From Oncomelania hupensis (lineage: Eukaryota > Mollusca > Gastropoda > Littorinimorpha > Pomatiopsidae), in contig CM072526.1 of the NCBI GenBank assembly GCA_036898135.1, forward strand, positions 9,012,687 through 9,076,686: a DNA stretch of 64,000 nt. The letters run 5' to 3'. Under the pieces are notes generated by a model. It ran no database searches, was not told the DNA's origin, and saw nothing but the letters and a program-made list of their open reading frames with translations. A program made the position numbers and the translations under genes. Positions within the stretch are counted from its first letter, which is position 1. Every line of letters starts with the position of its first letter. Shown one piece after another: positions 9,421-32,669 of the stretch.

Positions 9421-10544
9421 GTAAGTGTTTGTGCATTGTATGTGTGTGTTTGTGTGTGTATGTTCCTTCACACTATAGCAAGACGCATTCTCACGACCAG
9501 ACACTGCCCTGTGCTTGTTATTTATACATTTAAGCACAATGTAAACATTATGTTCCCTCCTCTTCCTCTCTCTTTCTCTCTCTCTCACTCTCTTTCTCTT
9601 TCTCGCGTTAATCTTCATCCTATCTGTCTGTCTGTTTCTGTCTCTCTGTCTGTCCGCGTCTGTGTCTCTCTCACTCCCATTTTTTGAAATGCACATGTTA
9701 TAAAGGTGGATTAATGAATAGACAATCCAATACAGTATATACACTACATACTTATACGCCACATTGTTACACACACACATGTAGTACTACCTATATACAC
9801 ATACATACACATGTACCTCCACACATGGAAACACATAGGCAGGCGCGCGAGCCCAAACACATATATACTCTATGTAACCAAGTAGCCCTGGTTCAGAATT
9901 TAGAGACTAATCACTGAGAGACTCTACATCTAAACGCTAATGTGTTTGATATTAGGATAGACACCCTTTGGAAAGATGTGCGGAGATCAGAGCATTCAGA
10001 ATTTCCTGGATCTTGTGGGTAGGTGATAACTGGCTAATGATACTGTGTGCTAGAGGCCGGAGGGGGAGAGAGGGGCAGATATGCGATGGATTGATGAGAT
10101 GGGACAGCTGGTGGGACAGATTTGTTTGTGCTCTGCTTTAGCGGACCACAGACTCGGTGCCGTTTCCGGAAGAGGACGTCAGCACGGGTCATTCGTATGT
10201 TTATGTTTGTTTCGTTTGTTTGGGTGACTCGGCGCTGCTTTCGGGCCAGGGCTTCTCGAGGTATACAGAACGTCAGCACGTGTCAGGCGGATGTTTATGT
10301 TTCGTTCGCATGGGTGCTTTGTAGAAGGGATCCATTGTTGTGTGGAAATCCGGATTTTGAATGTGGTTTGGAGGAGGAGCTTGAAGGGAGGCTGGGAGAT
10401 GAAAATACCATCACGGATGGGTTTCAAGATTTGATCGACAGGAAGGAGGAGGGAAGAACTAGTGTTAGGATCAATGGAAAAGAGACAGAGAGAGAGAGAG
10501 ATAGACTAGGACGGTCCCGAGAAAAGATGCGTAGTTAGAGTGAG
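9421..10544. other. No gene recognised; simple sequence and a degenerate duplication
   Basis: Contains GT-, CT- and CA-rich tracts (9436-9830). Around 10165-10315 is a roughly 80-bp imperfect direct duplication sharing CGTCAGCACG and ATGTTTATGTTT. No domain or splice-bounded exon is convincing. Confidence 0.4.
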
Positions 10545-11057
10545 TTAGTCTACATTCCAAAGTAAGACTGCTGCGCTCCCTTGTCATCTCCATCTTCCTA
10601 TATGCTTGCGAAGCATGGACCCTCACAGCAGATCTACAACAAAGAATACAAAGCATGGAGATGAGGTGCTACAGAAGACTTCTGGGCATTTCCTATACCC
10701 AACACATCACCAACGACGAAGTCCGACAGACCATCACACAAGCCATTGGACAACATGATGACCTGCTCTCAGAGGTGAAGAAACGGAAACTCCGATGGTA
10801 TGGCCACGTCACCAGATCATCAGGCCTTGCAAAGACCATTCTGCAAGGCACAGTGCAAGGAGGTAGAAGAAGAGGGAGACCGAAAAAGGTTGGAGGACAA
10901 CATTCGAGAATGGACTGGTTTGACACTGAGCGAAGCCATCAGGGCTGCTGAGGACCGAGAAAGATGGAGTATGCTGGTTAAACGATCATCTGTGGTGCCC
11001 CTACGACCTACGGGTTACGGGACAGGATAGGATAGGATAGGATAGGATAGGATAGAA
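10545..11057 (+). pseudogene. RTE-type LINE, 3' end of ORF2 plus GATAG tail
   Basis: Reads LLRSLVISIFLYACEAWTLT, then MEMRCYRRLLGISY and RKLRWYGHVTRSSGLAKTIL, the conserved C-terminal region downstream of the reverse transcriptase in RTE-clade elements. A one-base loss near 10888 breaks the frame after GRRRGRPKK. The coding end is followed by TTACGGGACAGGATAGGATA and further GATAG repeats (to 11057), the 3' tail type shared by all copies here. It is a 5'-truncated dead copy. Confidence 0.85.
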
Positions 11058-11063
11058 CGGGAA

Positions 11064-11513
11064 CACTGCGATAAATACCTACAGCACCAACAACATCTAT
11101 ATCATGTGTTCGTAGACTTCAAGAAGGCGTTTGATCGAGTCTGGCATGCAGCTCTGTGAGCAACCATGAGAGTGTACAACATCAGCCTTAAAATTATTGA
11201 AGTCATTAAAGGCCTGTATGACAAGGCTACAAGTGCAGTCCTCCATTAGGCCTACAGCGCCATCGGAAACTGTTCAGAACAACAATCGGTATGCGACAAG
11301 GATACCTACTATCTCCAAAACTCTTCAACCTCTTCCTAGAGTGCATCGTGTCAAATGCCCTTACAGAACACGAAAGCACAGTAAGCATAGAGGGTAGAGC
11401 AATCTCCAACCTTCCTTTTGTGGATGACATTGATGGATTGGCTGGAGAGGAACAAGAACTTGAACAGCTGGTACAGAGGCTTGACACCACCTCCAGAGCC
11501 TATGGAATGGAAA
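11064..11513 (+). pseudogene. RTE-type LINE, reverse transcriptase core fragment
   Basis: Encodes HVFVDFKKAFDRVWHAAL followed by an in-frame stop, then MRQGYLLSPKLFNLFLECIV, and finally the catalytic-motif region as LPFVDDIDGLAGEEQELEQL, where the usual FADD has become FVDD. A (CA)n array at 11514-11545 cuts it off. It lies downstream of an element end although it belongs upstream of it in the element, so it is a separate or rearranged fragment. Confidence 0.85.
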
Positions 11514-11577
11514 TACACACACACACACACACACGCACACACACACACACATACTATTTATACTATTTACACACACA
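11514..11577. repeat. (CA)n microsatellite
   Basis: CA dinucleotides with one CG interruption, ending the LINE fragment at 11513. Confidence 0.9.
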
Positions 11578-11965
11578 CGTATACTCGCACGAAGTTTTAC
11601 TGGGCAATTTTTCCTCAAGAAAGTACACACTTGATCGATGACTGAGTCATTTGCTGTTTTACAGAAGTATTTACTGTAGGTAATATAGAGAATCACCATG
11701 CCTTTACAGTATAAAGCAGTCCGGTTGTCGGTCAGTTAGTCAGTTGGTCGGTTCGTCGCTTCATATTTCACCTTTTTTGTGTGTCCAAAACACACTTTAT
11801 GCCTTATCTAAAAGAAAAGAACTGAACCGAAATGTACCATGTTTACTTTGTGGATACATTAACTACGGACAAGCATGTTAGATCATTGGAATGTGTACTT
11901 TCTCAAGGGTCAATGTCATCGTGTTTCACCATTTTCTAAAACACGTTTTACGCTGTATCTGCCAA
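11578..11965. other. No gene seen
   Basis: AT-rich unique-looking sequence. A short GGTCGGT-type run occurs at 11726-11755. Confidence 0.4.
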
Positions 11966-14159: not shown

Positions 14160-15952
14160 CGTAACCCGAAGGTCGTAGGGGCACCACAGATGATCGTTTA
14201 ACCAGCATACTCCATCTTTCTCTGTCCTCAGCAGCCCTGATGGCTTCGCTCAGTGTCAAACCAGTCCATTCTCGAATGTTGTCCTACCACCTCTTTTTCG
14301 GTCTCCCTCTTCTTCTACCTCCTTGCATTGTGCCTTGCAGAATAGTCTTTGCAAGGCCTGATGATCTGGTGAGGTGGCCATACCATCGGAGTTTCCGTTT
14401 CTTCACCACTGTGAGCAGGTCATCGTGTTGTCCAATGGCTTGTGTGATGGTCTGTCGGACTTCGTCGTTGGTGATGTATTGGGTATAGGAAATGCCCAAA
14501 AGTCTTTTGTAGCACCTCATCTCCATGCTTTATATTCTTCGTTGGAGATCTGCTGTGAGGGTCCATGCTTCGCAAGCATATAGGAAGATGGAGATGACAA
14601 GGGAGCGCAGCAGTCTTACTTTGGAATGTAGACTGATGGTCCTGTCTTTCCAAATGGGCTTCAACCTTGTCAGGACAGCAGTTGTTTGTGCGATCCTGGA
14701 GAGGACTTCCTGTCGGGACCCATTGTCTGATACAATGGCTCCTAAATATTTGAAGCTATGCACTGTGTTGAGGGATTGGCCTTGGACTTTGATGTCCGTG
14801 TTGATGCCATTGGTGTTGTTGGTCATCATTTTGGTCTTCTCTGCACTTATTTCCATTCCATAGGCTTTGGAGGTGGTGTCAAGCCTCTGTACCAGCTGTT
14901 CAAGTTCTTGCTCCTCTCCAGCCAATCCATCAATGTCATCTGCAAAACGAAGATTGGAGATTGCTCTACCCCCTATGCTGACTGTGCCTTCATGGTCTGC
15001 AAGAGCATCTGACATGATGCGCTCTAAGAAGATGTTGAAGAGTGTTGGAGAGAGTAGGCATCCTTGACTCACACCGATTGTTGTTCTGAACCAGTTCCCG
15101 ATGGCGCTGTTGTGGAGGACTGCACTGGTAGCCTTGTCATACAGGCTTTTGATGATTTCAATAATTTTAGGGCTGATGTTGTACACTTTCATTGTTGCCC
15201 ATAGAGCTGCATGCCAGACTCGGTCAAACGCCTTCTTGAAGTCTATGAACACATGATATAGATGTTGTTGGTGCTGTAGGTATTTCTCACAGATTATTCT
15301 GAGGTTGAAAATCTGCTCAGTGGTACTTCGCCCTGCCATGAATCCTGCTTTTTCTTCAGCTATGATTTGTTCAGCTTGGGGTTTCAACCTGTTGAGTATT
15401 ATTTTCAGGAGGACCTTGCTGGTATGGCTAATGAGGCTGATGGTGCGGTAATTTTCACACTCCTGAAGGTTACCTATTTTGGGAAGAGTGATGACAAGCG
15501 ACTGGGTCCATGGTATAGGCCACTCGCCACTCTGCCAGATCTTGTTACAGATAATGGTGAGGGCATCAATCATCACTTCTCCTCCTGCTTGTAGCAGTTC
15601 CGCGGGTATGTTGTCCACTCCCGCTGACTTCCCTTTCTTTAGCGATTGCACTGCTGCCTCAACTTCTTCCCGAAGAATTGAGAGGATTTTTTTCTTCTTC
15701 TCTGTTCTCGTGACATGTTAGAACTGATGGGTCTCCATTTGGTGTATGGTTGTAAAGGTCAGAGCAGTACTCTGTCCATCTGTCCAAGACTTCTTGTTCT
15801 TCTGTAAGGCATATGCCAGACTTGCTTTGGATCGTGGAGACACTTGTCAGCCGCTTCACAGTCTGGTAGGCCTTCTTGCTGTTGTTCTTGTTCAGACTGT
15901 TCTCTATTTCGTGGCATTGATCTTCTATCCAGTTCTCCTTTGCTGTGCGCAT
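14160..15952 (-). pseudogene. LINE reverse transcriptase and C-terminal region, broken
   Basis: The longest intact block (15651-14530) starts at QSLKKGKSAGVDNIPAELL and continues with FIDFKKAFDRVWHAAL, GVSQGCLLSPTLFNIFLERI and the catalytic LRFADDIDGLAG, so the two active-site Asp residues remain. Upstream, 15952-15659 is a linker reading ENWIEDQCHEIENSL, joined by a frameshift in the A-run of GAAGAAAAAAATCC. Downstream, CAA to TAA after TADLQRRI and GAG to TAG after KKRW stop translation. The tail then reads DNIREWTGLTLSEAI. Confidence 0.9.
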
Positions 15953-16055
15953 GCCTTTTCGGATGTCATTGTTGATTTTTCGGTAGACGTCAGCTCCCTG
16001 TAAGTTGTTCTTTTTTTTTTTTTATCTCTCTTCGTTTATCACACAGATCCAAAGG

Positions 16056-17232
16056 TTAAGGCGTGATCCACGGCTTCTTCTTTGGTCGGTGCTTGCCAAG
16101 GATCTCAGTGGCGGCATCTGTCACAGCTGAGTTGAAGGTGGTGGTCATGGTATTGGCATCTACTTCACCAGCCCCCAAAATGAGCAGTGGTGCAAATTTC
16201 CCTCCAATTGTGGCCTGAAATAGTTCTGCCACCTCCGGGTCTTGCAGTTTGTCAAGGTCGAACTTCAGTCTAGTGCACTTTGCTGTATTTACTCTCTTCA
16301 AATGGAGCCGGAAAGACATCATCACGAGATCGTGGTCACTTCCGATGTCTGCTCCTGGAAAAGTACGTGTCCTGCCAATGTTGATGCTTGATCTGAAGCG
16401 TTTCTTGACCATGATGTAGTCTATTTGGTTGTGATGTTCCCCGCCGGGACTGTGCCATGTCCATCGTCTGGAGTTTTTGTGGAGACCAAGCGTGTTTGCC
16501 AGTACCAGATTGTTGTATCTGGCAAACTCCAAGAGTCTCAGACCCCTGTCATTTGTCTCGTTGTTGCAGTGTGCAGTCCACATGTGTCTCCCCAGTTGTG
16601 GTGCGCATCTTGGCCAACCTTGGCATTCCAGTCGCCTTGCACTATGACTATGTCCTTCTTCGGCACTTGGTCAAGGACCGCCGTAGATTTTCATGAAAAT
16701 CCTCCACTTCGCTGTCGTCATAGTCTGATGTTGGGGCATAGGCCTGGATGATGGTGATGTTGAAAGGAGCTGCTCTCAGGCGGATGGTGATGAGTCTACT
16801 GGAGACTGGGCGGCAACCCATGACAGTGGCTAGAATGTTCTTGTGGACCAAGAATCCAACGCCTTGTTCGTGCCTGTCATCTCTACCGCTGAAATAGAGC
16901 TTGTGGCCTTTGTCGGTCGTTGTTTCACCTAGGCCTTTCCAACGCTGTTCGCTGATGCCTAGAACGTTCCATCGATAGTGGGCCAACTTGTGGGCCAGTT
17001 CTTCTAATTTTCCTTCCGCAGTTAGGGTCCTGACATTCCAGGTTCTTATCACGATGTTGTTTCTCGTGCGGATCTTGCTAAATTGTCCATCAGTAGCATA
17101 CTTAACACCTCCGTCCTGGTGGCCAACGGAAGGCGCGGTCCTTGTTCCGGGCGACGACCGATCCGGTATGGAATTAGTGGATTGTGTCATCATGTAGTGT
17201 GTCTTGGGCAAAAAAGACCTGGCGGTGCCCAA
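16056..17232 (-). pseudogene. LINE endonuclease domain, broken
   Basis: Exonuclease-endonuclease-phosphatase fold endonuclease that would nick target DNA. Visible motifs in order: TWNVRTLTAEGK, GISEQRW (catalytic Glu), IIQAYAPTSDYDD, GDWNAKVGQD (Asp/Asn) and IGSDHDLVMM (Asp-His). A one-base shift lies near 16692, between HENLRR and VPKKDIV, and a second near 16585. An in-frame TAA at about 16055 follows KKKPWITP, and the 13-A run at 16011-16023 shifts the frame again. Genome annotations often label this domain craniofacial development protein 2-like, because the ruminant gene of that name derives from an RTE endonuclease. Confidence 0.9.
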
Positions 17233-17256
17233 TCCTCTCCAGGCTGTTGGCCACAG

Positions 17257-17924
17257 CCGAAATCCACGAACTCAACTAACGGTGAATATAATTCAAGGTG
17301 TTAACGTCAATCTAAGTAATTTAACCAGTAAAGTAATTCACAAAATAAACGTTAACAAATGATTTAGTCCCTAATAGTCCAACTAACTATTCAATCTTCA
17401 AACACATTTTCTTTACAATTACTTGTAGATATAAAATCGTTTTTAAATGTACAAACACTAATAGTTCTTTTAGGCTACCTTATATTTTGAATCCGCCACA
17501 ATTAAAATTATTTTCACCTAACACCACAACTATATATAACATTCACACACTTTTAGACACTCACTCCATCCACCATTACACCTATCCATAAAAGTTCATC
17601 CACACTTCTAGCAAACAGTCACAATCACCTAGAGAGAGAACTTTGACTTGATCACACCCAATGAGTCAGCTAATTAAAAGAAATTTGCTTATAAGGAAAG
17701 ATAATTCATAGTTCCAAATTTTTTCGCCCACGCTTTCATTCACGGTGACTGTGCTAGTTAACACTAGTTCACCAAACTACGTGTTGCACTGTAAATTAAA
17801 CAATTCACTTCCTGGCATTTTCAAACCAATTTTCTACATAAACCATGTACCATATTTTCAAAGATAATACTTTTTAACTTGGACGACTTCTTGTTAGTTG
17901 ATTTTTAAAGATTTTTGAAGGAAG
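17257..17924. other. AT-rich stretch, no gene seen
   Basis: No exon, domain or tandem structure detected. Confidence 0.45.
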
Positions 17925-20280: not shown

Positions 20281-20490
20281 GATCCACAAGACCTCAGTAT
20301 CGTCATCGACGGGAAATCTAAAAAATTCACGGAGTATACGCGAGAGTTCACGAAACAGTACTATCCGGAAATTCTTGATTGTAAGCCCCTGATGGTTCCG
20401 CCTGTACTGTTCCACCAGACATGGCTGTGTACCGACAGAGAGGCCACACACAGGCTTCACTCTCACCTGCCCACAGTAGCCTGCAGGGAC
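20281..20490 (+). CDS. Helicase-like gene, exon a (first one found)
   Basis: Acceptor TTCTTTCAAATCAG, donor GTAAGC at 20491. Exactly 70 codons, phase 0 at both ends, residues 1-70, including LSIVIDGKSKKFTEYTREF and LFHQTWLCTDREATHRLH. No in-frame ATG with upstream stop makes a start credible, so earlier exons are expected. Confidence 0.8.
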
Positions 20491-23400
20491 GTAAGCCTCG
20501 TCGTAGTTGTATCATGCCAAAGCTATGATGTTCTTCATGTTGTCGTAGTTGTATCATGCCAAAGCTATGATGTTCTTCATTTTGTCGTAGTTGTATCATG
20601 CCAAAGCTATGATGTTCTTCATTTTGTCGTAGTTGTATCATGCCAAAGCTATGATGTTCTTCATTTTGTCGTTGTTGTATCATGCCAAAGCTATGATGTT
20701 CTTCATTTTGTCGTTGTTGTATCATGCCAAAGCTATGATGTTCTTCATTTTGTCGTTGTTGTATCATGCCAAAGCTATGATGTTCTTCATTTTGTCGTTG
20801 TTGTATCATGCCAAAGCTATGATGTTCTTCATTGTGTCGTTGTTGTATCATGCCAAAGCTGTGATGTTCTTCATTGTGTCGTTGTTGCATCATGCCAAAG
20901 CTATGATGTTCTTCATTGTGTCGTTGTTGCATCATGCCAAAGCTATGATGTTCTTCATGTTGTCGTTGTTGCATCATGCCAAAGCTATGCTGTTCTTCAT
21001 TTTGTCGTAGTTGTATCATGCCAGAGCTATGATGTTCTTCATGTTGTCGTTGTTGTATCATGCCAAAGCTATGATGTTCTTCATGTTGTCGTTGTTGTAT
21101 CATGCCAAAGCTTTGATGTTCTTCATGTTGTCGTTGTTGTATCATGCCAAAGCTATGATGTTCTTCATGTTGTCGTTGTTGTATCATGCCAAAGCTATGA
21201 TGTTCTTCATGTTGTCGTTGTTGTATCATGCCAAAGCTATGATGTTCTTCATGTTGTCGTTGTTGTATCATGCCAAAGCTATGATGTTCTTCATGTTGTC
21301 GTTGTTGTATCATGCCAAAGCTATGATGTTCTTCATGTTGTCGTTGTTGTATCATGCCAAAGCTATGATGTTCTTCATGTTGTCGTTGTTGTATCATGCC
21401 AAAGCTATGATGTTCTTTATGTTGTCGTTGTTGTATCATGCCAAAGCTATGATGTTCTTCATTTTGTCGTTGTTGTATCATGCCAAAGCTATGATGTTCT
21501 TCATTTTGTCGTAGTTGTATCATGCCAAAGCTATGATGTTCTTCATTGTGTCGTTGTTGTATCATGCCAAAGCTATGATGTTCTTCATTTTGTCGTTGTT
21601 GTATCATGCCAAAGCTATGATGTTCTTCATGTTGTCGTTGTTGTATCATGCCAAAGCTATGATGTTCTTCATTTTGTCGTTGTTGTATCATGCCAAAGCT
21701 ATGATATTCTTCATTTTGTCGTTGTTGTATCATGCCAAAGCTATGATGTTCTTCATTTTGTCGTTGTTGTATCATGCCAAAGCTATGATGTTCTTCATTT
21801 TGTCGTAGTTGTAAAGCGCTTTTCCAGCTCAAGAGCTGCTCAAGGCGCTGGTCGATACAGGATCTAACTCAATCCGCCCGAGGCGCACACTCGCTGCAGT
21901 AGGTGCATTGTCTGACGCCCAGACCACTAAGCACAATGCGGGGATGGGGAGAAGGGACCTAGTGCATGCGGGGTGTATCGGTGTAGCAGGCGCTCACCCG
22001 TCTAGGACATAAGCGTCAAGATGTTAAAAGTCCGTTCAACAGAAAGCGTGCGTGCAGGGACTAAGATGTTAAGACGATTCTAAGAAAATAGCCTTTTCTC
22101 AAGTGGAGGTGTTGGAGAAGATTTTGTGTTTGTTTGCTTCTGAGTTTGGAATTTTCATTGGTCACTGGTGGGGGCAAAATTGGGACTGCCTTCTCAGCCA
22201 ATGCGCCGCAACCGCGAGAGAAGCGCCACTCAGGACAAGGGTGGAAAGGGACGGTAATAAGCGAGTCACCATGTGGTGTCTATATATTGGTGTTTCTAGC
22301 ATTTACCTGTCTAGGACACGAGAGACAGGATCTTTATAGTCTTTGCCGTGGAAGGATGCTTGCGTACACAGACAAGACCTCGGTTTATACTCTCATCCGA
22401 AGGATGCGTGTCCAGACATTCACACGCATTGCCGAAAATAGCTTTGTCACTGTTAATGTTGTTGGCGCCATGGTGACTCGTCTTTATCGTAAAGAAGTAC
22501 AAGTGATAATGTTGTTGGCGCCATGGTGACTCGTCTTTATCGTAAAGAAGTACAGGTGTTAATGTTGTTGGCGCCATGGTGACTCGTCTTTATCGTAAAG
22601 AAGTACAGGTGTTAATGTTGTTGGCGCCATGGTGACTCGTCTTTATCGTAAAGAAGTACAGGTGTTAATGTTGTTGGCGCCATGATGACTCGTCTTTATC
22701 GTAAAGAAACAAAATAAAAACAATACAGACGTAACATTGAACAAAAATAATAGCGGTTCTTTTAACATGAATTTATTTACGTAGGTGACGGTTGCTGACG
22801 TCTCCAACAAGAGCGAGCACGCTCGGAGAGCCTCCGAGGCGGAGTACATGGTGGCCGAAGCTTTCCGTCAGCTGGCCTCAAACTTGCCAGACCCCAGCGC
22901 CATCATAGTGGGCCACAAGTTTGAGAACTATCTCACCAACGTCAGGAAACGTGAGTCTCGCTGCCAGTGTTGATGCTGACACCAGTAGTGAACACTAACT
23001 GACTAATGTGACACGTTACAAGTTGTGCTATGGTCAGCAATACCTAAAACTAACTTGTTTGTTTACAGACATTATCACCACGTATAGCATACTCTACTGA
23101 CGGTATTACCACGTATAGCTCATTCTACAGACATTACCACCACGTATAGCACATTCTACAGACATTATCACCACGTAGCAGATTCTACAGACATTACCAC
23201 CACGTATAGCACATTCTACAGACATTATCACCACGTAGCACATTCTACAGACATTATCACCACGTAGCACATTCTACAGACATTATCACCACGTATAGCA
23301 CATTCTACAGACATTACCACCACGTATAGCACATTCTACAGACATTATCACCACGTAGCACATTCTACAGATATTATCACCAAGTAGCACATTCTACAAA

Positions 23401-23715
23401 CATTATCACCACGTAGCACATTCTACAAACATTATCACCACGTATTGCACATTCTACAGACATTATCACCACGTATAGCATATTCTACAGACATTATCAC
23501 CACGTATAGCACATTCTACAGACATTATCACCACGTAGCACATTCTACAAACATTATCACCACGTATTGCACAATCTACAGACATTATCACCACGTAGCA
23601 CATTCTACAGACATTATCACACATTGCACTTGTCAGTAATTATCCACTACGATAGAGGGGACATCAAACAGAAAGAGAAAGACCGAGAGAAAGAGAGAGA
23701 GAGACAGAGAGAGAC

Positions 23716-23779
<64 letters not shown>

Positions 23780-25084
23780 TTAGTAGTAGTAGTAGTCACA
23801 GCCGATTTGCCAACTTACGTGAACTGAAGTTCAGTGAATTCGACCCCGAGTTGAACTCGGGTCATGTGACTGTCTTTGTTGTCGTTGTTTTGTTGCTTTG
23901 TCATTGTTGTTGTTGCTATTTTTTATTTTTATTTTGGTTGTTGCTGCTGAGGTGGTTATTGCTGGTGCTACTTCTGTTGCTATTTCTCGTAATGGTTGGA
24001 ATAGGTTGACGTTTATCAGCAGCAGCAGAATTGATGACGACGACCACCACCACGATAATGACGATGATGATGATGATGACAACGACGCCAACGACGACGA
24101 CGAGGACGACGATGACAACATCTCCTTTCATGGCAATAACGTTAACCCACAATTTGTCCTTGTTGTTTCCAGAGTTATGCAACGTGGGAATGCCGTCACA
24201 AGTGGTGGGCGACAAAAGAGGCGAACATGACCTGTTGTTCATCCACCCTACAAACGGCGTCCTGCTCGTCTCTGTCAAGTCGGTTGGACAAAACTTTGCA
24301 GGTGAGACTTCTAGAGCTAGAGCACACAACATGCCTTAACTCCAGGCAAATGCAGCTCAGTCAAATCAAAGGCAAAGTCACAGCTTGGGTGATGATGACT
24401 GAAGCGTGACAACTGTGAAAGACATTGGAATGACTGGGGGTTTGGTCTTCTTATTCGCTGTATCAAATGTATATTTAGCATATCGATACAATCAATGGAC
24501 TATAAACCATTTCTAAATATGCCTGGACACTCACTGTGTTTTAAAGATAACATTTCATCGTGGAATGCGTGATGGTGTTTTTGATCGCAAAGTGGGCGCT
24601 CGTATTGTCGTCGTCACTGTTGTTGTTGATAGTGTTGTTGTCGTCGCTACTGTTGTTGTTGTTGTCATTGTCGTCGTTGCTGTTGTTGTTGCTGCTGCTG
24701 TCCAAGGCGTATGATAATCAGCCGTGACTTTATTTGGCAGCGCTGCAGAAGAGCCAGCAAGAGCAGGAGCACATATTGAAGAACATCATTCGAAACAAAG
24801 TCATCAACCAGTTGAATATCGAGGTGAAGGTCGTCGAGCACGTGCTGCGTGATCTTTCACCTCCCGTGACCCCTGCCCTCGCCCTCCCCAACATCACCAG
24901 GGAAATGCTGACTGCTGTGCTGGAACAAGACGCCATGCTGAAGCAGGTTACGTCTGCTTCATCGCTTATACAGTCAGTCAGTTAGTCAGTCAGACAGTGC
25001 TAGTCAATCAACCAGCAGGAATATATTCTTCGAGAGGCTGTGAATGAGTGGGTTAGTCAGCTCAACAGTCAATCAATTGGTTGT

Positions 25085-25162
<78 letters not shown>

Positions 25163-26210
25163 TGCATTTATACAGCGCATTTTTCATTAGAAAAACAATT
25201 CAAATGCGCTTGCACACATCATTCGTACGCATCATCACAACATTCGAACTACATCATGTCCAGGATGTTTGTGTAGGTGTTGCTTAGGTATTGTTTAGAT
25301 ATTGTTTAGGTGTTGCTTAGATGTTATTTATGTCAGTTGCTGGTTGTTAGCGAGGTGCCTGGAGGTAGAGGGACAGTTCAATGATTTGGGTGTGATCATT
25401 GTGTCAGCAGGTGGCTATTTTACTGTTGAAGTAACAATATATCAATTACTTATTGACAGACTGATTGAATGGCTTAACTGATTCACATAGACAACTTTCT
25501 TACTAAGCCTTCTTCTTTGCTAGTTTTATCTTCCTTTTTTGGACACTTCATTGTCCCTTTTTATCGGGAAATTCTGGGCTGCCTTCCCTGGGGAAGGCGT
25601 AGTCGTAGCCTATAGCACTCCCAAACCCAACCTACCTTATATTAGTTTTTTGCTTGAAATTTTGCTGGGGGAGCAAACCGGAGTACCCGGAGAAAACCCC
25701 GAGACTTTGCCCGAGTCGAAAGTAAATTGGGAGAAACATAACGCCTATAGTCAGTGAGCAGGTAGCTATTTTAAGGTAAGCTTACTTCATTGATTGATTA
25801 GAAGGGTCTGCTACCGTTGAACTATTCCCATTCCAGGCTACCTATCTTGGCAGATTGTGTATAATATTTGCCTCCAATATTTGTTTTCTCAATAGCCTTT
25901 GAACCTTTTTTCACAGGACCTCGACACGCTACTAAAGGGAGACAGTTCTGTACTCTGCATCTGCTCCGACGAGTTCTTTCCCTTGAACATAGATGCAGCA
26001 GACGACGGCAAATCAAACTCGGGTCTTGCTGAATGGTTTCAACGCAGATTTCCCTCTACAGGCCCTTCAGCCTATGCTCTTTCTCTGGACCAATATGAGG
26101 ATGTTGTAGGGAGGTAAGCTGTGGTTTATTTTTGTGTAATTGTTACTGTGATTTTCCACTTGAGGGAAGTTTGGGGAAAGTCTTGATTAACGCACTATAT
26201 GGAAACAAGG

Positions 26211-26279
<69 letters not shown>

Positions 26280-29200
26280 GTGTTTTTTTATGAGCGCGAT
26301 AAACGTCCGTGCGTATTGTTTGTAGCTATGGCAGACAATTGAGATTTTGATTGCGCTAAAGGATGGCATAAGAGTGGTGTACTAGTAGTCCTAGGGTTTA
26401 CTAATACAAGCCCTATCCCTAACGATGGCCCCAAATCTATTGTTAACTGTGACAACACATTCGGTCAACGAACAGCAGTTGTGAAAATTATTGCAATGAC
26501 TCCTATTGGTAGACTTTTATAGTTTGGTGTTAAATCCCTCTTCCCCTTTCATTCCATTTTGTTATAAGGTTCTTAATTGTGATTTGATTATATTGAATTG
26601 TTGTTATTAATTAATGTCTAATATCACCTAAATGTGTCAATAGACAATTAATGAAATATTGATTGATCGGTCAACGAAGATAGCCATTGACGAACACAAT
26701 CTGTCAACGACTTCATTTATTGACAAAAACAATCTATCAACGACATAATTCATTGGTAACACTATTTCGTTAAGTGTTGGGCATAAACCTGAGCAGCATC
26801 AATGATACTGCGTCTTATGTTTTAGAGCTGAGACTTCGTCATAATTATGCTGTTATGTTGAGACTGCGTCCTATGCTGTTATGCTGAGACTGCGTCCTAT
26901 GCTGTTATGTTGAGACTGCGTCCTATGCTGTTATGCTGAGACTGCGTCCTATGTTTTAGTGCTGAGACTGCTTCCTATGCTTTAAGTTTATCTTTTATTA
27001 CCAGAAGAAAATGACTTTAGCATTAATTTACTAATCTTACAATCAGTCCTTCTTTCATATGTTGCCCTGCTGATGACGTTCTTCGTCTCGAAGTTCCTCA
27101 GTGTCAGGCTATAGAGTCTAGTACTACTTACCACGCTTGTCTTGTCCATGCAAGGCCACTCACACGGCAAGGCTGCTAACTGTATCAGCGAGACAATGGG
27201 GCTTCTTCAATCGTCAGTGGGATGCAATAGGAGGCTACAATAACTTAGTACAGACCACCGTCACCTGCAGACCACCACGCATGTTGAAGTTTATAATTTT
27301 GTTTGTTCAGATATTGCGGTCTGTGCTCCATTGTGGACATCCATCACCGCAGCTGTGGAGGTCGAATAGAGGTCAGGACTATGTCAGAAGCTGTCACAGA
27401 AGTCAGCAGACGCTTCCGGTCGCTCCTTTTACTTCCGCACCAAGTGGATTTGCTATGCAGGTAACATGTACAACGATCTATTTACACAGAAATACGGTGC
27501 ATTGTTTTAAAAGGAGGGCTGGGATTGTTGTAACCTCGCCGTCATTGAAGCAGAAGGAGGAGAGAGGGAGAGAAAGAGAGCAAGGGTATGCGTGGGGTGG
27601 AGGAGCCATTGTAAAAGAAAGATTCTGGGGATGGAGAGGAAGTTGGAGGGGCCTTCTTATCAAGTGACCGTCTTTGTTAGGGCGGTGCCTCTTCCCTAAC
27701 AGAGTTTTATCTTACTGGGTTCTGAAAAAAAAGAGTCAGGTACCTAAACACAACTGGAAGGGAGGGGGGGGTGGGTTGTTGTGCGATGATTGGACGCGGT
27801 CGTAGGTCGATGTTCATATCTCCGTGTATTAATAGTAATGTTTGTCAAATCTGCTGTAAACAGCTCGCACACCAGGGTCTACATGTACGGCATGCTGGGC
27901 TCCGGCAAGACCGTCTTGCTGACGTTGAAGGCGCGTCATTGGTTAGCCACAGGATGTGACGTCATCGTGATTAACGTCGGTTATGACGCAAAAGGAGCTC
28001 CTATTGGCCACGCCCTTCTTCGTGACATTGAAAAGGCCTCTGAAAATGATGGCAGTGACTCGGAGGTGCTTGTGTATTAATGTGGGCTTTCAATGTATTC
28101 TGTTTTCCTCTTCCTTTGGTGTTGCTGTATTGTTCATGATGATTCTGACGCTGTTGTTGTTGTTGGTGGTGGTGGTGGTGGTGGTGGTGGTGGTGGTTGC
28201 TGTTGTTTTTGTTGTTGTTCTTCTTCTTGTTCTTGTTTTTGTTCTTGTTCTTGTCTTGTTCTTGTTCTTCTTCTTGTTCTTCTCCTTGTTCTTCTTGTTC
28301 TTCTTGTTCTTCTTGTTCTTCTTCTTCTTCTTCTTCTTCTTCTTCTTCTTCTTCTTCTTCTTCTTCTTCGTGAAACGTGTGTATTTTGCCTCTGTTTAAT
28401 TCAGGTGGTCATGATCAACGTCAGGTTGGCAGAGTTTGAAGTTAAGACGTTCCTGCAGGCTATCAATGACAAGATCCTGAAGATGCAACAAGACAGACTC
28501 CTCCAACCTTCCACAGAAGATATTGACACCAATCCTGCATCATCGTCATCAGCAGTAGCAGTAGAAACAGCAGTAGCAGTTGAAACACCAGTAGCAGTAG
28601 AAACAGCAGTAGAAACAGCAGTAGGAGGGGCAGCAACTGGTCTACTTCAGAGCTCAAAGACGGAGCCTCGACCTCGATCCGTCCACTTCATACTGGATGA
28701 GATCTACCCCAAATTCCACCCAGTGTTCACAGCGTTGACAGAACACTTCCCTCAGTCACACATATGGGCAGCTGGTAAGTCCACAGTGGCAAGATTGACC
28801 ACACTTCCACTAACTGACTAAGTACAGCGTCATGTTGTAAGGTTGTAGCAGCGGCAGCAGGAATATGGACATAAACCATCACCTTCACTCTAAACCTTGT
28901 TTTCATGACAATCCCGCAAGACATGACACTATAGAAAATAGTGTCCAACCTGATAGTCCACTGCACGTTGAATAGAGCTGGTAGTGTCAGGCTGGTCAGC
29001 ATTGACATCTTTGCCATCATAGTGGACATTGTTGATAGTAAGGCGGGAAGTTCAGTGGAGGGGTGCCCGCAGTCTCAACTGTTAACCTGGACGAGTGACT
29101 GCCAGAGATACAATACACCCACCATGAACTCCGTCCTATTCCACATCGCGTTGAAGTGGTGCTCTGCAGTTGCGGGGCTTTAGCTGAGAAAGCAACGTGC

Positions 29201-32200
29201 ATTTCGTGTGCATGGGTGACGTGACAAGTATCATCCATTCTCCAAATCCCTGTCGCGGAACTTGATGGCAAAAGTAATCCTTGTGTGTTCTGCGTTGTGT
29301 GTTCTGTGTTGTGAGAGGTCTTCCGTCACTGGGTAGCATGCTGCTGCTGTTGTTGTTGCAGGTCTAGTGCAAGAGAACGCACCAGCGGGATTCCAGTCCC
29401 ACAAAATGGACAGAGTGTTGCGGAACCCACCAACCGTCCAGCGTGTTCTCAGACACACTGACTATGACTCTGCCAGGTTAGTACAACCGTTTCCAGTCTA
29501 CAAACATTATGTGCATCATTTGCTTTCTTCGGGGTGTCGGATAGTGCAGTGGTTGGAGCACTCGCAACTGTGTCGCAAGTTAAGCACCATCCAGTGCGGT
29601 TAGCACTTGGATGGGTGACCGCAAAACGTGAAGCGACAAATAACAACGCCCCCAGTTGACTCAACTGTGACTGAGTACCGACACTCTTAAGGGTGGGGAA
29701 GATAAAGCAGCGAGGGAGAGAGATGGGCATCACCCTCATTACGCTGGCCCAAGATAAGTGTGATCTCCAACATCACGCTCCCCTACGGCCACAAGGCTAT
29801 GGGACCACCTTTACCTTTTTATTTGTTTTCTTAATACAACGCAAAACTGTGTTTTTTAATGTTCCGAATTATTTCACTGAACTGAGGGATTTACTGATGT
29901 CTTTGATGTCCGTGATGATGCCATTGGGGCTGTTGGTCATCATTTTGGTCTTCTCTGCACTGATGAAGGCGACAGGATAATCGCTGAAAGCTACACGAAT
30001 GAGTAGCCATTTATGCATGTGTGACTTGTCAAAAAAATCTGTAGCCGATATTTCTCTGCACTTATTTCCATTCCAAAGGCTCTGGAGGTGGTGTCAAGCC
30101 TTTTTACCAGATGTTCAAGTTCTTGTTCCTCTCTAACACGGAGTTTGAAGATTGCTCTACACCCTATGCTGACTGTCCTTTCGTGACCTGCAATGCATCT
30201 GGAATGATGGCGCGGTCCAGAAAGATGTTGAAGAGTGTTGGAGAGAGTTGGTATCCTTGACACACGCCGATTGTTGTTCTGAACCAGTTCCCAATGGCGC
30301 TGTTGTGGAGGACAGCACTGGTATCCATGTCATCCAGGCTTTTGATGACTTCAATAATGTTAGGGCTGGTGTTGTACACTCTCATAGCTGGCCACAGAGC
30401 TGCAAGCCAGACTCGGTCAAACGCATTCTTCAAACCTACAAACACATGATATAGATGTTGTTGGTGCTGTAAGTATTTCTCGCAGATTATTCCGAGGTTG
30501 AAAATCTGTTCAGTGGTACTTCGCCCTGCCCTGAGTCCTGTTTATTCTTTAGCTATGATTTGTTCAGCTTGGTGTTTCAACCTGTTGAGTATTATTTTCA
30601 GGAGAACCTTGTTGGGATGGTTTATGAGCCTGATGGTGCGGTAATTTTCACACTCTAGTCCCCCAACACAGTGCATAGCTTCAAATATCTAGGAGCCATT
30701 GTATCAACCAATGGGTCCCGACATTATGTCCTCTCCAGGATCGAACAAACAACTGCTGCTCTGACAAGGTTGAAGCCCAATTGGAAAAGACAGGACTATC
30801 AGTCTGCATTCCAAGGTCAGGCTGCTGCGCTCCCTTGTCATCTCCATCTTCCTATACGCTTGCGAAACATGGACCCTAGCAGCAGATCTACAACGAAGAA
30901 TACAAAACATGGAGATGAGGTGCTACAGTAGACTTCTTGGCATTTTCTAAACCCAGCACATCACCAACAATGAAATCAGACAGACCATCACACAAGCCAT
31001 TGAAAAACACGATGACCTGCTCACAGTGGTGAAGAAACGGAAACACCAACGGTATGGCCACGTCACCAGAAAATCAGGCCTTGCAAAGGCCATCCTGCAA
31101 AGCACAGTGCAAGAAGGCAGAAGAAGAGGGAGACAGAAAAAGAAGTGTAAAAACAACTTTCGAGAATGGACTGGCCTGACACTGTGCGAAGCCATGAAGG
31201 TTACTGAGGACAGAGAAAGGTGAAGTACGCTGGTTAAACGATCATCTCTGGTGCCCCAACGACTTTCGAGGTACGGGATAGGATAGAAATTAGTACATTC
31301 TTATTCATATGAAAACGTTTTGAATAAGTTATTTTGCTCCTGAAATATTCTGGTTCTAAGATTTTGTACAGTCATGTATCCTACTAAATTGGAGCATTCG
31401 TTTTCCGGCTAGAAAAATAACTGGTATAATTTGTTCTCCACTTACATTGCAGTTACACAAAAATCTGAATTTGAACTATATTATTGTCAACGGAAGTATA
31501 ATTGTTTTCCTGGAAACTGTGTCTCATTATTGTCCCACAGGTATGATGATACTGACGTCACACATTGATCACTTTTACTGTGCAGGTTTGAGGGCTATAC
31601 CACTAATGGTGCTAAAGACGGTCTGCCATCAGAGGGTCCCACGCCGATGTTCATCTACCATCAGTACCACGCGTATTCCTCTTCTCCTCCTCCCTGTCCT
31701 CCTCCGCCTCCTCCATCCTCTTCCACTTCACCGGCTTTCACGTCCCCTCCCCCTCTCTTTGTTCTGTCTTCTCCGGAGGCTGCCGCAGACGACAATCCCT
31801 ACGCCTTCATCAATGCCTATTCACCGCTGGGCTGCGAACAGTGCGCTGTGGAAACGTGCCAGTTTCTACAGAAGAATGTCGGCATCAGCCCAGCGTCATC
31901 TGGCGATGACAACTACGGCGGAAACGTCAAAATGGAGAAATCTCCCAAGAAGAAATCCAAATCAGCCGTCCAGCAGCGTCTGAGTGCGAAGGACGTGGTG
32001 GTGTTGTGCAGAGACCCCAAAGCTAAATGCTTGTACCCGCAGGTGGACGACTGCTTCCGACTGAACGCTCAGCTGTTCTCGCAATTCGTGTTAGCCATGG
32101 ATCATTCCGTCTACGCCCGGAGACTGCGACAGTTCGGGTATGCCGTGAGGACGGCCACCGACACGAGTTCCGATGAACTGGTGATGGCCGACACGGACCA

Positions 32201-32669
32201 AATCACCCTTACGTGGGTCAACCCTGTGTCCGGCTTGGAGTGGCCCGTCGTGATATATATCCCCGGAGATCCGCCTCATGCAGGAAATACTGATAGCGCG
32301 CAACCTGAAAACCCGGAAAATTGGGAGACCCAGGACTGTCATGAAACCGATCCTGAGTCCATCGAGGCTGAAAAGTTGCAATTTTCCGAGGCCAAAAGGC
32401 TGGGAATAACCGAAGTAGGTCAAATGCCTGAGTCATCACAGATTCACATGCCTGAGTCATCATCGGGTCACATGCCTGATTCATCACAGGACGCTCAGAA
32501 GTATGAAACATCGAGGTCTGTTGAGAAGGATGAGTGGAAATTTGCCTGCAATGACGTGATAGAGAGAGGTCTTCAAGCAGTCACAGGTCGTATGAGTGAA
32601 GAGGATAAGAAATACTTGTTCTGGGGAGGCAGTCGCTGTACATCTCAGCTGGTGGTCATCATTCCTTGA
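20281..32669 (+). CDS. NERD-like nuclease / SF1 helicase-like protein, ten exons, 5' partial
   Basis: Exons are 20281-20490, 22785-22950, 24173-24301, 24741-24946, 25917-26113, 27311-27460, 27864-28065, 28405-28774, 29362-29476 and 31586-32669. All nine junctions keep phase (0,1,1,0,2,2,0,1,2), giving 942 codons with one terminal stop. Residues about 88-168 look like a NERD domain of the PD-(D/E)XK nuclease superfamily, with E90, G142-E143, D145 and K161. Residues 358-370 carry Walker A (GMLGSGKT), 513-520 Walker B (VHFILDEI), 798-805 GLEWPVVI like SF1 motif V, and 931-940 SRCTSQLVVI like motif VI. A likely role is a nucleic-acid-dependent ATPase with an attached, possibly inactive, nuclease; this is inference. 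Similar unnamed proteins occur in marine invertebrates. Upstream exons are missing. Confidence 0.8.
20491..21812. repeat. Intronic minisatellite, 42-bp unit, about 31 copies
   Basis: Begins within ten bases of the donor of exon a. Units contain GTTGTATCATGCCAAAGCTA and TGATGTTCTTCATTTTGTCG. The unit is open in several frames on both strands, producing the longest frames in the window (545 and 494 residues), none of which looks like a natural protein. Confidence 0.95.
21813..22405 (-). mobile_element. SINE family with GCGCT 3' end, with a second partial body
   Basis: Starts AAAGCGCTTTTCCAGCTC at the end of the minisatellite and runs through the family blocks TAGGACATAAGCGTC. From about 22165 a second diverged body ends with GGTTTATACTCTCATCCGAA. 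Both lack the tRNA head. Confidence 0.75.
22449..22710. repeat. Intronic minisatellite, 53-bp unit, five copies
   Basis: Nearly identical units with GTTGTTGGCGCCATGGTGAC and TCGTCTTTATCGTAAAGAAG, 75 bp upstream of exon b. Confidence 0.95.
22785..22950 (+). CDS. Helicase-like gene, exon b (start of NERD-like region)
   Basis: Acceptor TTATTTACGTAG, donor GTGAGT. Residues 71-126, with SEAEYMVAEAFRQLASNL, the helix that carries the first conserved Glu (E90) in NERD-type proteins, then AIIVGHKFENYL. Confidence 0.85.
23068..23630. repeat. Intronic minisatellite, 26- to 31-bp units, about 19 copies
   Basis: Units contain CATTCTACAGACATTATCAC and CACGTA(TA)GCA. Length differences come from loss or gain of TATAG. 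Confidence 0.9.
23664..23773. repeat. (GA)n microsatellite
   Basis: GA repeats with CA and AA interruptions, then (TAG)n. Confidence 0.9.
24031..24118. repeat. GAT/GAC-rich simple sequence
   Basis: Imperfect GAC/GAT trinucleotides about 55 bp upstream of exon c. Low-complexity Asp frame only. Confidence 0.8.
24173..24301 (+). CDS. Helicase-like gene, exon c (nuclease core)
   Basis: Acceptor TTGTTGTTTCCAG, donor GTGAGA. Residues 126-169 include GEHDLLFIHPTNGVLLVSVK. The pattern Glu, Asp, then Lys fits a PD-(D/E)XK core, but Ser159 stands where the acidic residue of (D/E)XK is normal. Confidence 0.85.
24741..24946 (+). CDS. Helicase-like gene, exon d
   Basis: Acceptor TTTATTTGGCAG, donor GTTACG (weak but in phase). 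Residues 169-237, helical and Gln-rich: LQKSQQEQEHILKNIIRNK. Confidence 0.8.
25087..25250 (-). mobile_element. (AAT)n microsatellite at a SINE-like 3' end
   Basis: About 75 bp of AAT repeats followed by ATTTATACAGCGCATTTTTC, the complement of the AAAAAGCGC-type 3' end seen elsewhere. Confidence 0.7.
25545..25765 (-). mobile_element. SINE fragment, minus strand
   Basis: GCAAACCGGAGTACCCGGAG and AAAACCCCGAGACTTTG are the complement of the shared SINE central motif. Head degraded. Confidence 0.6.
25917..26113 (+). CDS. Helicase-like gene, exon e
   Basis: Acceptor CCTTTTTTCACAG, donor GTAAGC. Residues 238-303, with LKGDSSVLCICSDEFFPL and GLAEWFQRRFPS. Confidence 0.85.
26211..26279. repeat. (TTG)n microsatellite
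   Basis: About 22 pure units in the intron after exon e. Confidence 0.95.
26290..26824. other. Intronic sequence, no further exon seen
   Basis: AT-rich. Contains three diverged TCAACGA-type blocks near 26670-26745 but no regular array. Confidence 0.4.
26825..26985. repeat. Short minisatellite, about 26-bp unit, six copies
   Basis: Units contain GAGACTGCGTCCTATGCTGT, with degenerate end units. Confidence 0.85.
27311..27460 (+). CDS. Helicase-like gene, exon f
   Basis: Acceptor TTGTTTGTTCAG, donor GTAACA. Residues 303-353 in the phase forced by exon e: YCGLCSIVDIHHRSCGGRIE, ending LLLLPHQVDLLC, the segment that normally precedes the P-loop in SF1 enzymes. Confidence 0.75.
27864..28065 (+). 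CDS. Helicase-like gene, exon g (Walker A)
   Basis: Residues 353-420 contain RVYMYGMLGSGKTVLLTLKA. Two in-phase acceptors 12 bp apart are possible (exon start 27864 or 27876). The first gives SSHTRVYMYG, which aligns better with related ATPases. Donor GTGCTT at 28066 is weak. Reading through it gives a stop after LVY. Confidence 0.8.
28160..28372. repeat. (GGT)n and (TTG/TTC)n simple sequence
   Basis: GGT repeats (28164-28195), then TTG/TTC repeats ending in pure CTT (28317-28370). They form a long pyrimidine-rich stretch just upstream of the exon h acceptor. Confidence 0.9.
28405..28774 (+). CDS. Helicase-like gene, exon h (Walker B)
   Basis: Acceptor CTGTTTAATTCAG, donor GTAAGT. Residues 421-544. 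A Val/Glu-rich low-complexity insert from GCAGTAGCA-type repeats (residues about 470-494) lies before RSVHFILDEIYP, and the exon ends SHIWAAG. Confidence 0.85.
29362..29476 (+). CDS. Helicase-like gene, exon i
   Basis: Acceptor TGTTGTTGTTGCAG, donor GTTAGT. Residues 544-582 include APAGFQSHKMDRVLRNPPTV, a block characteristic of this invertebrate family and lying after Walker B. Confidence 0.85.
29535..29825 (+). mobile_element. SINE with 5S rRNA-derived segment
   Basis: GCGGTTAGCACTTGGATGGG followed by TGACCGC (29597-29623) matches the 3' internal-promoter part of 5S rRNA, preceded by GTTAAGCACC. Just upstream, TAGTGCAGTGGTTGGAGCAC resembles a tRNA A-box region, so the head may be a tRNA-5S chimera. 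The body runs to ACCACCTTTACCTTTTT. Intronic, in the same direction as the host gene. Confidence 0.75.
29876..31287. mobile_element. RTE-type LINE copy with 5' inversion (twin-priming structure)
   Basis: Left part (29876-30652) is the reverse transcriptase region in minus orientation. Right part (30653-31287) is plus-oriented, from the codons for HSFKYLGAIVS through the C-terminal region (MVKKRK) to the GGGATAGGATAG tail. In the element's own coordinates the inverted piece ends and the direct piece begins at the same place (CAACACAGTGCATAGC). This is the product expected when one break primes each strand. Both halves carry stops. Confidence 0.85.
29962..30051. mobile_element. 90-bp insertion flanked by an 11-bp direct repeat
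   Basis: Interrupts the inverted LINE segment. Flanks are TTCTCTGCACT at 29951-29961 and 30052-30062; other copies of the LINE have this sequence once. The insert begins GATGAAGGCGACAGG, can form a hammerhead-like fold, and has a 7-A run near its right end. Confidence 0.65.
31288..31585. other. End of last intron, no gene seen
   Basis: AT-rich intron sequence leading to the pyrimidine-rich acceptor of exon j. Confidence 0.5.
31586..32669 (+). CDS. Helicase-like gene, terminal exon j
   Basis: Acceptor CTTTTACTGTGCAG; TGA at 32667-32669. Residues 582-942. Starts FEGYTTNGAKDGLPSEGPTP, then a Pro/Ser-rich stretch, a CxxC-like LGCEQCAVETC (663-673), a basic KSPKKKSKS, DVVVLCRD, GLEWPVVI, a short MPESSQIH/MPESSSGH/MPDSSQ repeat, and terminal SRCTSQLVVI, resembling SF1 motif VI. 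Confidence 0.9.

Follow-up and report, generated by a model that had tools for sequence, protein, structure and literature searches.

A ten-exon gastropod gene joining a NERD-like domain to a UvrD-like motor, with an amplified family of relatives in Oncomelania hupensis

A stretch of 64 kb from contig CM072526.1 of the snail Oncomelania hupensis (referred to simply as the window) carries on its + strand, between positions 20281 and 32669, a gene of ten exons. Its predicted product places a NERD-like domain ahead of a UvrD-like motor of superfamily 1 (SF1). The explanation that accounts best for the observations, to which we assign a probability of about 0.6, is that this is a real, conserved gastropod NERD-SF1 gene, homologous to bacterial proteins of the same layout and likely to be engaged in nucleic-acid surveillance. 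The architecture, with NERD preceding the UvrD-like motor, and the homology to the bacterial fusions are predicted from sequence comparison with very high confidence. We read the window gene as a single conserved branch within a hyper-expanded family, the amplification being seen for the NERD exon.

Gastropod relatives and bacterial fusions

Three protein database searches, in which only the candidates sharing most words with the query were scored, each returned the same set of four relatives (P0001, P0002, P0003 and P0004). On alignment, the window protein was 45–47% identical to them. P0001 is a protein of 829 residues from Nucella lapillus. P0002 and P0004 are models from Batillaria attramentaria; being 98% identical to each other, they are probably two models of one gene. 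P0003 consists of 837 codons on a contig of 2895 bases, which points to a cDNA of a related species. An earlier reading made from the letters alone (the sequence-only reading) had proposed looking for the same domain pair in other molluscs, and the pair was indeed matched in Nucella and Batillaria by protein search and alignment.

When P0001, P0002 and P0003 were compared with the window by tblastn, all ten exons were matched in order on the + strand, with best E values per exon from 2e-8 to 4e-43. For exon 8, only the final third was matched. The relatives span the exon junctions; at several of these, or close to them, lengths differ by 1–5 residues (none at 1/2, five at 2/3 in P0002, two at 4/5 in P0001, one at 5/6 in P0002 and three near 7/8 in P0001). 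P0004 lacks exon 9 and the start of exon 10, and P0001 likewise lacks the start of exon 10 and has repeats at its end where motif VI is expected; these departures look like differences between gene models. In a midpoint-rooted tree of 27 rows, the window protein, P0001, P0002 and P0003 stood together on one side of a 99/99 branch, and the window protein paired with that of Nucella (99/94). Eight of the 24 inner branches of this tree were unresolved, including the placement of the C3 paralog described below.

Bacterial fusions of NERD and UvrD were sought by profile and by protein search, and matches were obtained in 1 of 10, 1 of 299 and 10 of 398 genomes, with queries and thresholds that differed between the searches. 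Eleven of the 12 fusion loci had a usable open frame (L065–L074 and L076, with L073 truncated in NERD); L075 had none. A profile of six rows (the window protein, P0001, P0002, P0003 and the paralogs L012 and L004) was compared with these 11 fusions by hhalign. The match reached 98.57% (P = 1.2e-15, the P values of hhalign being those of single pairwise comparisons) over 475 columns, and was colinear from the first NERD helix through motif V. The four orthologs alone gave 97.5% with an alignment that stops in the first motor lobe.

Each half was also compared separately. The NERD family profile (21 rows) matched the NERD part of the fusions at 94.38% (P = 9.1e-8), and the NERD part cut from the six-row alignment matched it at 91.99%; 0 of 60 shuffles reached the observed score in either case. 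The helicase half matched its counterpart at 97.65% (P = 2.5e-12, 0 of 40 shuffles). When the wrong halves were paired as controls, the values were 0.30% and 0.19%. The family NERD profile scored 51.6 against the fusion NERDs and 27.1 against stand-alone bacterial NERDs, the two bacterial profiles being unequal in depth and length. Since the snail NERD thus scores nearer to the UvrD-fused NERDs, the result fits, with that inequality in mind, a single fused ancestor of the snail and bacterial proteins.

The bacterial fusions (PADLOC model C3a187 / PDLC01087; L065–L074, L076) resemble the snail gene in the order of NERD, linker and UvrD-like lobes. Two further features common to both, by eye, are the Q helix and, after NERD, the strand '(A/C)L.(F/L)P'. 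The snail gene differs from them by its nine introns, its long low-complexity inserts, the lack of DE-x-Q and GDxxQ, and the lack of the nuclease Glu. The C3a187 model, which describes NERD plus UvrD, matched three of five family members, with a best E of 0.0044. Because bacterial fusions of equal layout exist, as the PADLOC model attests, the joining of NERD and SF1 is not new to biology. Scans of genome and viral contig collections with the family alignment, each relying on two exact peptide patterns, returned no relative.

Gene model and state of the two domains

Re-splicing gave a model of 10 exons on the + strand, with 2829 nt, 942 codons and a single terminal TGA. All nine introns run GT...AG, and exons 2–10 are entered in phases 0,1,1,0,2,2,0,1,2. 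The ten GT-AG blocks, concordant phases and 942 codons of the sequence-only reading were borne out by re-splicing, and by tblastn with the relatives. The donors of intron 4 (GTTACG), intron 7 (GTGCTT) and intron 9 (GTTAGT) are weak. The features of the gene, in window coordinates, are as follows.

20281..20490, + strand: exon 1, codons 1-70, without a start codon; conserved N-terminal segment IVIDGK...MVPP
22785..22950, + strand: exon 2, codons 71-125; helix 1 of the NERD-like domain, EAEYMVAEAFRQL, at 22836-22874
24173..24301, + strand: exon 3; NERD core RGEHDLLFIHPTNGVLLVSVKSVG at 24217-24288
24229, 24271 and 24277, + strand: key codons of exon 3, namely D145, S159 (where the catalytic E is expected) and K161
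24741..24946, + strand: exon 4; conserved-Q helix VINQLNIEVKVVEHVL at 24800-24847 and strand PALALPN at 24872-24892; colinear with the bacterial fusions
25917..26113, + strand: exon 5; linker, with LC.C conserved
27311..27460, + strand: exon 6; YCG...IEVR...EAV, and Q-motif-like RFRSLLLLPHQVDLL at 27411-27455
27864..28065, + strand: exon 7; Walker A GMLGSGKT at 27889-27912, RecA-like lobe 1
28405..28774, + strand: exon 8; repeat-rich variable insert at 28552-28623, Walker B VHFILDE at 28681-28701
29362..29476, + strand: exon 9; motif IV-like RVLRNPPTVQRVL at 29412-29450
31586..32669, + strand: exon 10 including the stop; RecA-like lobe 2, KDVVVLCRDP at 31989-32018, Pro/Ser-rich insert near 31677-31715
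32226-32267 and 32625-32666, + strand: motifs of exon 10, namely motif V VSGLEWPVVIYIPG and motif VI GGSRCTSQLVVIIP

Exon 1 opens after an acceptor AG with DPQDLSIVIDGK. The first Met of the model is residue 38, and P0002 and P0003 also start there. Because the segment upstream of Met38 is conserved with P0001 in the alignment, a missing upstream exon is favoured over a start at Met38. It may be noted that the C3 paralog has an identical CAG|GAC border of exon 1, but its frame runs open upstream to an ATG.

The NERD landmarks (the helix E, the D, the x-K and the Q) were found by profile alignment to coincide with those of 19 stand-alone bacterial NERDs. The latter came from 21 loci gathered with a NERD query sequence, of which 19 were aligned; L041 and L048 missed the pattern. 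With hhalign, the family NERD profile matched these 19 at 24.6% (P = 8e-4) and a profile of the paralogs only at 12.9%, and none of 200 shuffles was as high in either comparison. In the Pfam scan, no NERD match was reported for the window protein. Of the five family proteins, a single one had a match below the cutoff (E 0.014, in P0001 or P0004), and so did 3 of the 10 paralog frames scanned (L018, E 0.046; L023, E 0.0017; L028, E 0.027). Compared with Pfam NERD (PF08378), the snail protein shares the E helix, D, x-K and Q, and differs by S-x-K in place of E-x-K and by its sub-cutoff score.

The catalytic motif of the window protein reads D145 ... S159-V-K161: the E of E-x-K is replaced by S, while D and K are retained. 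In the alignment, P0001–P0004 also have S at this position together with D and K. The paralog NERD exons that carry the motif have E in 18 of 18 cases, and so do all 10 bacterial fusions with a complete NERD (8 by pattern; L066 and L068 by eye). The paralog set was drawn from 20 NERD-related open frames; two fragments without the motif were dropped, L007 was added through a widened pattern, and the pattern was also open to D, S, N or Q at the Glu position. The C3 paralog (L062) reads Q-V-K after its two exons are joined. We consider it likely, from these residues, that the nuclease of the window gene is impaired or altered. The sequence-only reading had described a NERD nuclease plus an SF1 helicase; both domains and their order stand, by the separate profile halves with their shuffles and wrong-half controls, and the word 'nuclease' is too strong for the window gene because the Glu of E-x-K is Ser there and in P0001–P0004.

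The motor half retains Walker A (GMLGSGKT), Walker B (FILDE), the motif IV-like LRNPP, the GLE of motif V and the Arg of motif VI. Motif V (SGLEWPVV) aligns to the bacterial profile. Motif VI (SRCTSQL, by eye) is common to P0002 and P0003, and with the C-terminal end it is also present in the C7 and C3 paralogs. DE-x-Q and the motif III GDxxQ were not found by eye, LDEIYPK and WAAGLVQ standing in the aligned positions; nor were they found, again by eye, in P0001–P0003, L004 or L012. The strings ADTDQ and EDAIQ of the window protein fall outside the aligned motif positions. The SF1 patterns put forward in the sequence-only reading are thus borne out for Walker A and B, for motif V in its GLE and for motif VI in its Arg. 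DE-x-Q and GDxxQ are absent, and 'helicase' is unproven. From the residues retained, the window protein is predicted probably to bind ATP, and we expect it to hydrolyse ATP; unwinding is doubtful because GDxxQ is missing and the part preceding GLE is changed.

Scans of single members against Pfam, NCBIfam, PADLOC and PHROGs gave weak or sub-threshold matches only. Over five family members, Pfam returned AAA_30 in four (best E 0.13, window protein) and UvrD_C_2 in two (best E 0.01, P0002, at motif V). The C3 paralog L004 matched GajB (UvrD) models with a best E of 1.4e-4 over about 40 residues around the Q motif and Walker A. A match of residues 188-282 to carnitine palmitoyltransferase in the PDB (E 0.008–0.022) was judged to be due to chance. 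A separate frame, L001 (C5:65961174-65964971), is UvrD-like and uninterrupted over 1080 codons, and matched the NERD+UvrD profile with E 4.5e-6; no NERD was seen in it, and it was set aside as a NERD-SF1 relative.

The paralog family and its possible role

When P0003 was searched against the whole genome, 55 matches were obtained. At E ≤ 1e-3 there were 53, which fall at 41 loci, 40 besides the window, on 16 contigs; the two weaker matches were dropped from the locus count. An internal stop lay within the match at 7 of the 40 non-window loci, and this search turned up no copy that closely resembles the window gene. With the L028 NERD exon as query, 175 matches were obtained, the best 150 of which represent at least 101 loci. 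Among these listed matches, 4 of the 101 loci have a stop inside the match, 66 of 101 lie on C12, a contig of 62.8 Mb, in the interval 44.3–61.1 Mb with a median spacing of 144 kb, and about 70 of the matches are 74–89% identical to the query copy. Both searches united give at least 110 loci on 22 contigs, 65 of them on C12 within about 17 Mb after coarser merging; the locus totals are minimum numbers of NERD-type or motor exons and not of whole genes, and stops were counted in the matched stretches only. An expansion of the NERD-type exon to more than 100 loci had not been foreseen in the sequence-only reading. It contrasts with the matches in 1 of 299 and 10 of 398 bacterial genomes, although queries and thresholds differ.

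Of twelve regions of 9.9 kb, every one matched the first motor lobe (L060 no further than Walker A), 11 matched NERD (the exception being L053) and 4 matched the region of motif V. The matched parts lay on a single strand in a shared order. L060, the single C12 copy inspected, has an intron inside Walker A; since no second lobe was detected inside the stretch inspected, the C12 figures are counts of exon loci rather than of intact genes. Among the NERD-exon frames, the ratio of nonsynonymous to synonymous substitution rates (dN/dS) was 0.35–0.80 for eight pairs of recent paralogs, in which some members recur, and 0.12 for a ninth, distant pair with saturated dS. The paralogs thus read as being under loose constraint. 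The nearest paralog by a common exon 1 is L062 (C3:34101500-34111400).

The mechanism that we propose starts from one protein in which an N-terminal segment, a NERD domain of the PD-(D/E)XK type and a two-lobed UvrD-like motor would act together. Because Walker A, Walker B and the motif VI Arg are intact, the motor may engage nucleic acid and consume ATP. In paralogs with an intact D...ExK, NERD could cut the nucleic acid bound by the motor. The window gene and its relatives, in which the metal-binding Glu is Ser, would for that reason probably serve as sensor, scaffold or regulator more than as active nuclease. The role envisaged is the surveillance of nucleic acids, or an innate immune defence directed at viruses or mobile elements. 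Surveillance appears the most likely role because NERD occurs in bacterial defence systems and the copies are numerous and clustered.

Nhi combines a nuclease with an SF1 motor, and GajB of Gabija, a UvrD-like protein, is not known to carry a fused NERD; its likeness to the snail family consists of the L004 match already described. A table in one review lists NERD (PF08378) in the Mokosh type I and Nhi-like antiphage systems (PMC10952713), a domain that the snail gene shares. Nhi, Nhi-like and Mokosh systems are bacterial genes and the snail genes an animal family, the two being likened by description only. Passages of a BREX study propose that NERD serves as a backup effector with nuclease function (PMC12839542), and in passages of a YprA study a NERD nuclease belongs to a defence system described as rare (PMC12458937). 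A paper on conserved immune modules (PMC11249213) contains none of the terms Mokosh, Nhi, NERD, helicase and mollus. Judged by title, the papers found that join a NERD domain with a helicase concern prokaryotes and phages. A literature search whose coverage left out most subscription journals found no study of animal NERD-helicase proteins. An immune or genome-defence role, drawn by analogy, is therefore advanced tentatively, at slightly less than even odds.

Several observations weigh against a NERD-SF1 gene with such a role. A profile of the orthologs only matched the stand-alone NERDs at 10.4%, and 1 of 200 shuffles scored higher. None of the scanned members reached the Pfam NERD cutoff of 22.1 bits (the best printed score was 19.3, for L023), and none was above the Pfam cutoff for UvrD_C_2 or any AAA model. 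The C3a187 match is weak, and was not obtained for P0003 or the family consensus. In the motor, GDxxQ is gone and the segment preceding GLE is altered; P0001 as annotated has repeats at its end in place of motif VI. Two AlphaFold runs on four-protein alignments gave poor models (mean predicted local distance difference test, pLDDT, of 34.3 and 39.1), with moderate confidence in parts of the first motor lobe. Foldseek, queried with the first of these poor models, yielded no match at E ≤ 0.001; of the 702 obtained at E ≤ 10, the top-ranked was a spliceosome chain, and the next were mostly KaiC and RAD51-type P-loop proteins. These structure results speak neither for nor against the nuclease fold. 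For the immune role, the evidence consists of the bacterial analogy and the copy number.

SF1A motors paired with PD-(D/E)XK nucleases are common in DNA repair. A RecB/UvrD-type family for repair or chromosome maintenance, with a copy number that reflects local amplification without a defence role, would suit this pairing, the lack of a close duplicate of the window gene in the P0003 search, and the relatives in other gastropods. However, repair genes are rarely amplified to more than 100 loci, and the nuclease Glu is lost precisely in the branch that is conserved across gastropods, so that we regard this explanation as unlikely. A selfish or mobile element family carrying NERD-SF1, of which the window gene is a domesticated copy, is improbable. 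It would explain the more than 100 loci, the listed matches of 74–89% identity and the LINE-like frames (long interspersed nuclear elements, by eye) in and near copies, but the inspected copies keep their domain order and intron-split exons, 65 of the 110 loci lie in a single 17-Mb stretch instead of being dispersed, and the window gene clusters with the proteins of other snails in the tree.

The second half could also be a STAND-type or other P-loop switch, making the protein an NLR-like receptor. Weak nSTAND3/5/6 matches (E 0.004–0.08), the missing GDxxQ and the KaiC/RAD51-type neighbours that follow the spliceosome chain for the poor model point in this direction. We think this quite improbable, given that the colinear match of the helicase half to UvrD-like motors of bacteria extends as far as lobe 2 and motif V (97.65%, 0 of 40 shuffles), and that L004 matches GajB and P0002 matches UvrD_C_2 at motif V. 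We give least credence to a pseudogene in decay, or to exon-like blocks joined by artefact: 942 stop-free codons, ten conserved exons (exon 8 in part), and a motif VI and C-terminal end common to P0002, P0003 and the C7 and C3 paralogs speak against it, and the absent start codon, three weak donors and coding minisatellites speak for it.

If the preferred explanation of a conserved NERD-SF1 gene is right, a bacterial layout listed among candidate antiphage proteins would survive in an animal in the form of a large family, amplified recently, that escaped every curated domain model cutoff in the members scanned. A candidate nucleic-acid-sensing repertoire would be added to invertebrate immunity, and the motif-intact paralogs and the conserved Glu-less ortholog would offer a natural contrast. 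A fuller picture, which we put forward as speculative and on balance unlikely, is that gastropods possess a germline repertoire of more than 100 NERD-SF1 genes that share a fused ancestor with the bacterial enzymes and patrol nucleic acids; copies with D...ExK would be effectors, and the Glu-less ortholog (window, Nucella, Batillaria, P0003) a shared sensor or regulator.

Repeats and LINE-like frames in and around the gene

Three low-complexity inserts lie within the coding exons: AVAVET repeats at 28552-28623, the Pro/Ser-rich run at 31677-31715 and MPESS repeats at 32424-32489. They have little or no counterpart in the gastropod relatives. A 42-base repeat in 31 copies (20500-21813) begins just within intron 1 and leaves the frame of exon 1 open across a stretch of 546 codons. 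Over the whole window, 189 tandem-repeat rows were counted, overlapping rows included, and many of them fall within introns of the NERD-SF1 gene. LINE-like reverse transcriptase/endonuclease frames were recognized by eye at 14165-17271 (- strand), at 10544-11638 (+ strand) and at about 29994-31223. Broken LINE-like pieces sit in intron 9 of the gene.

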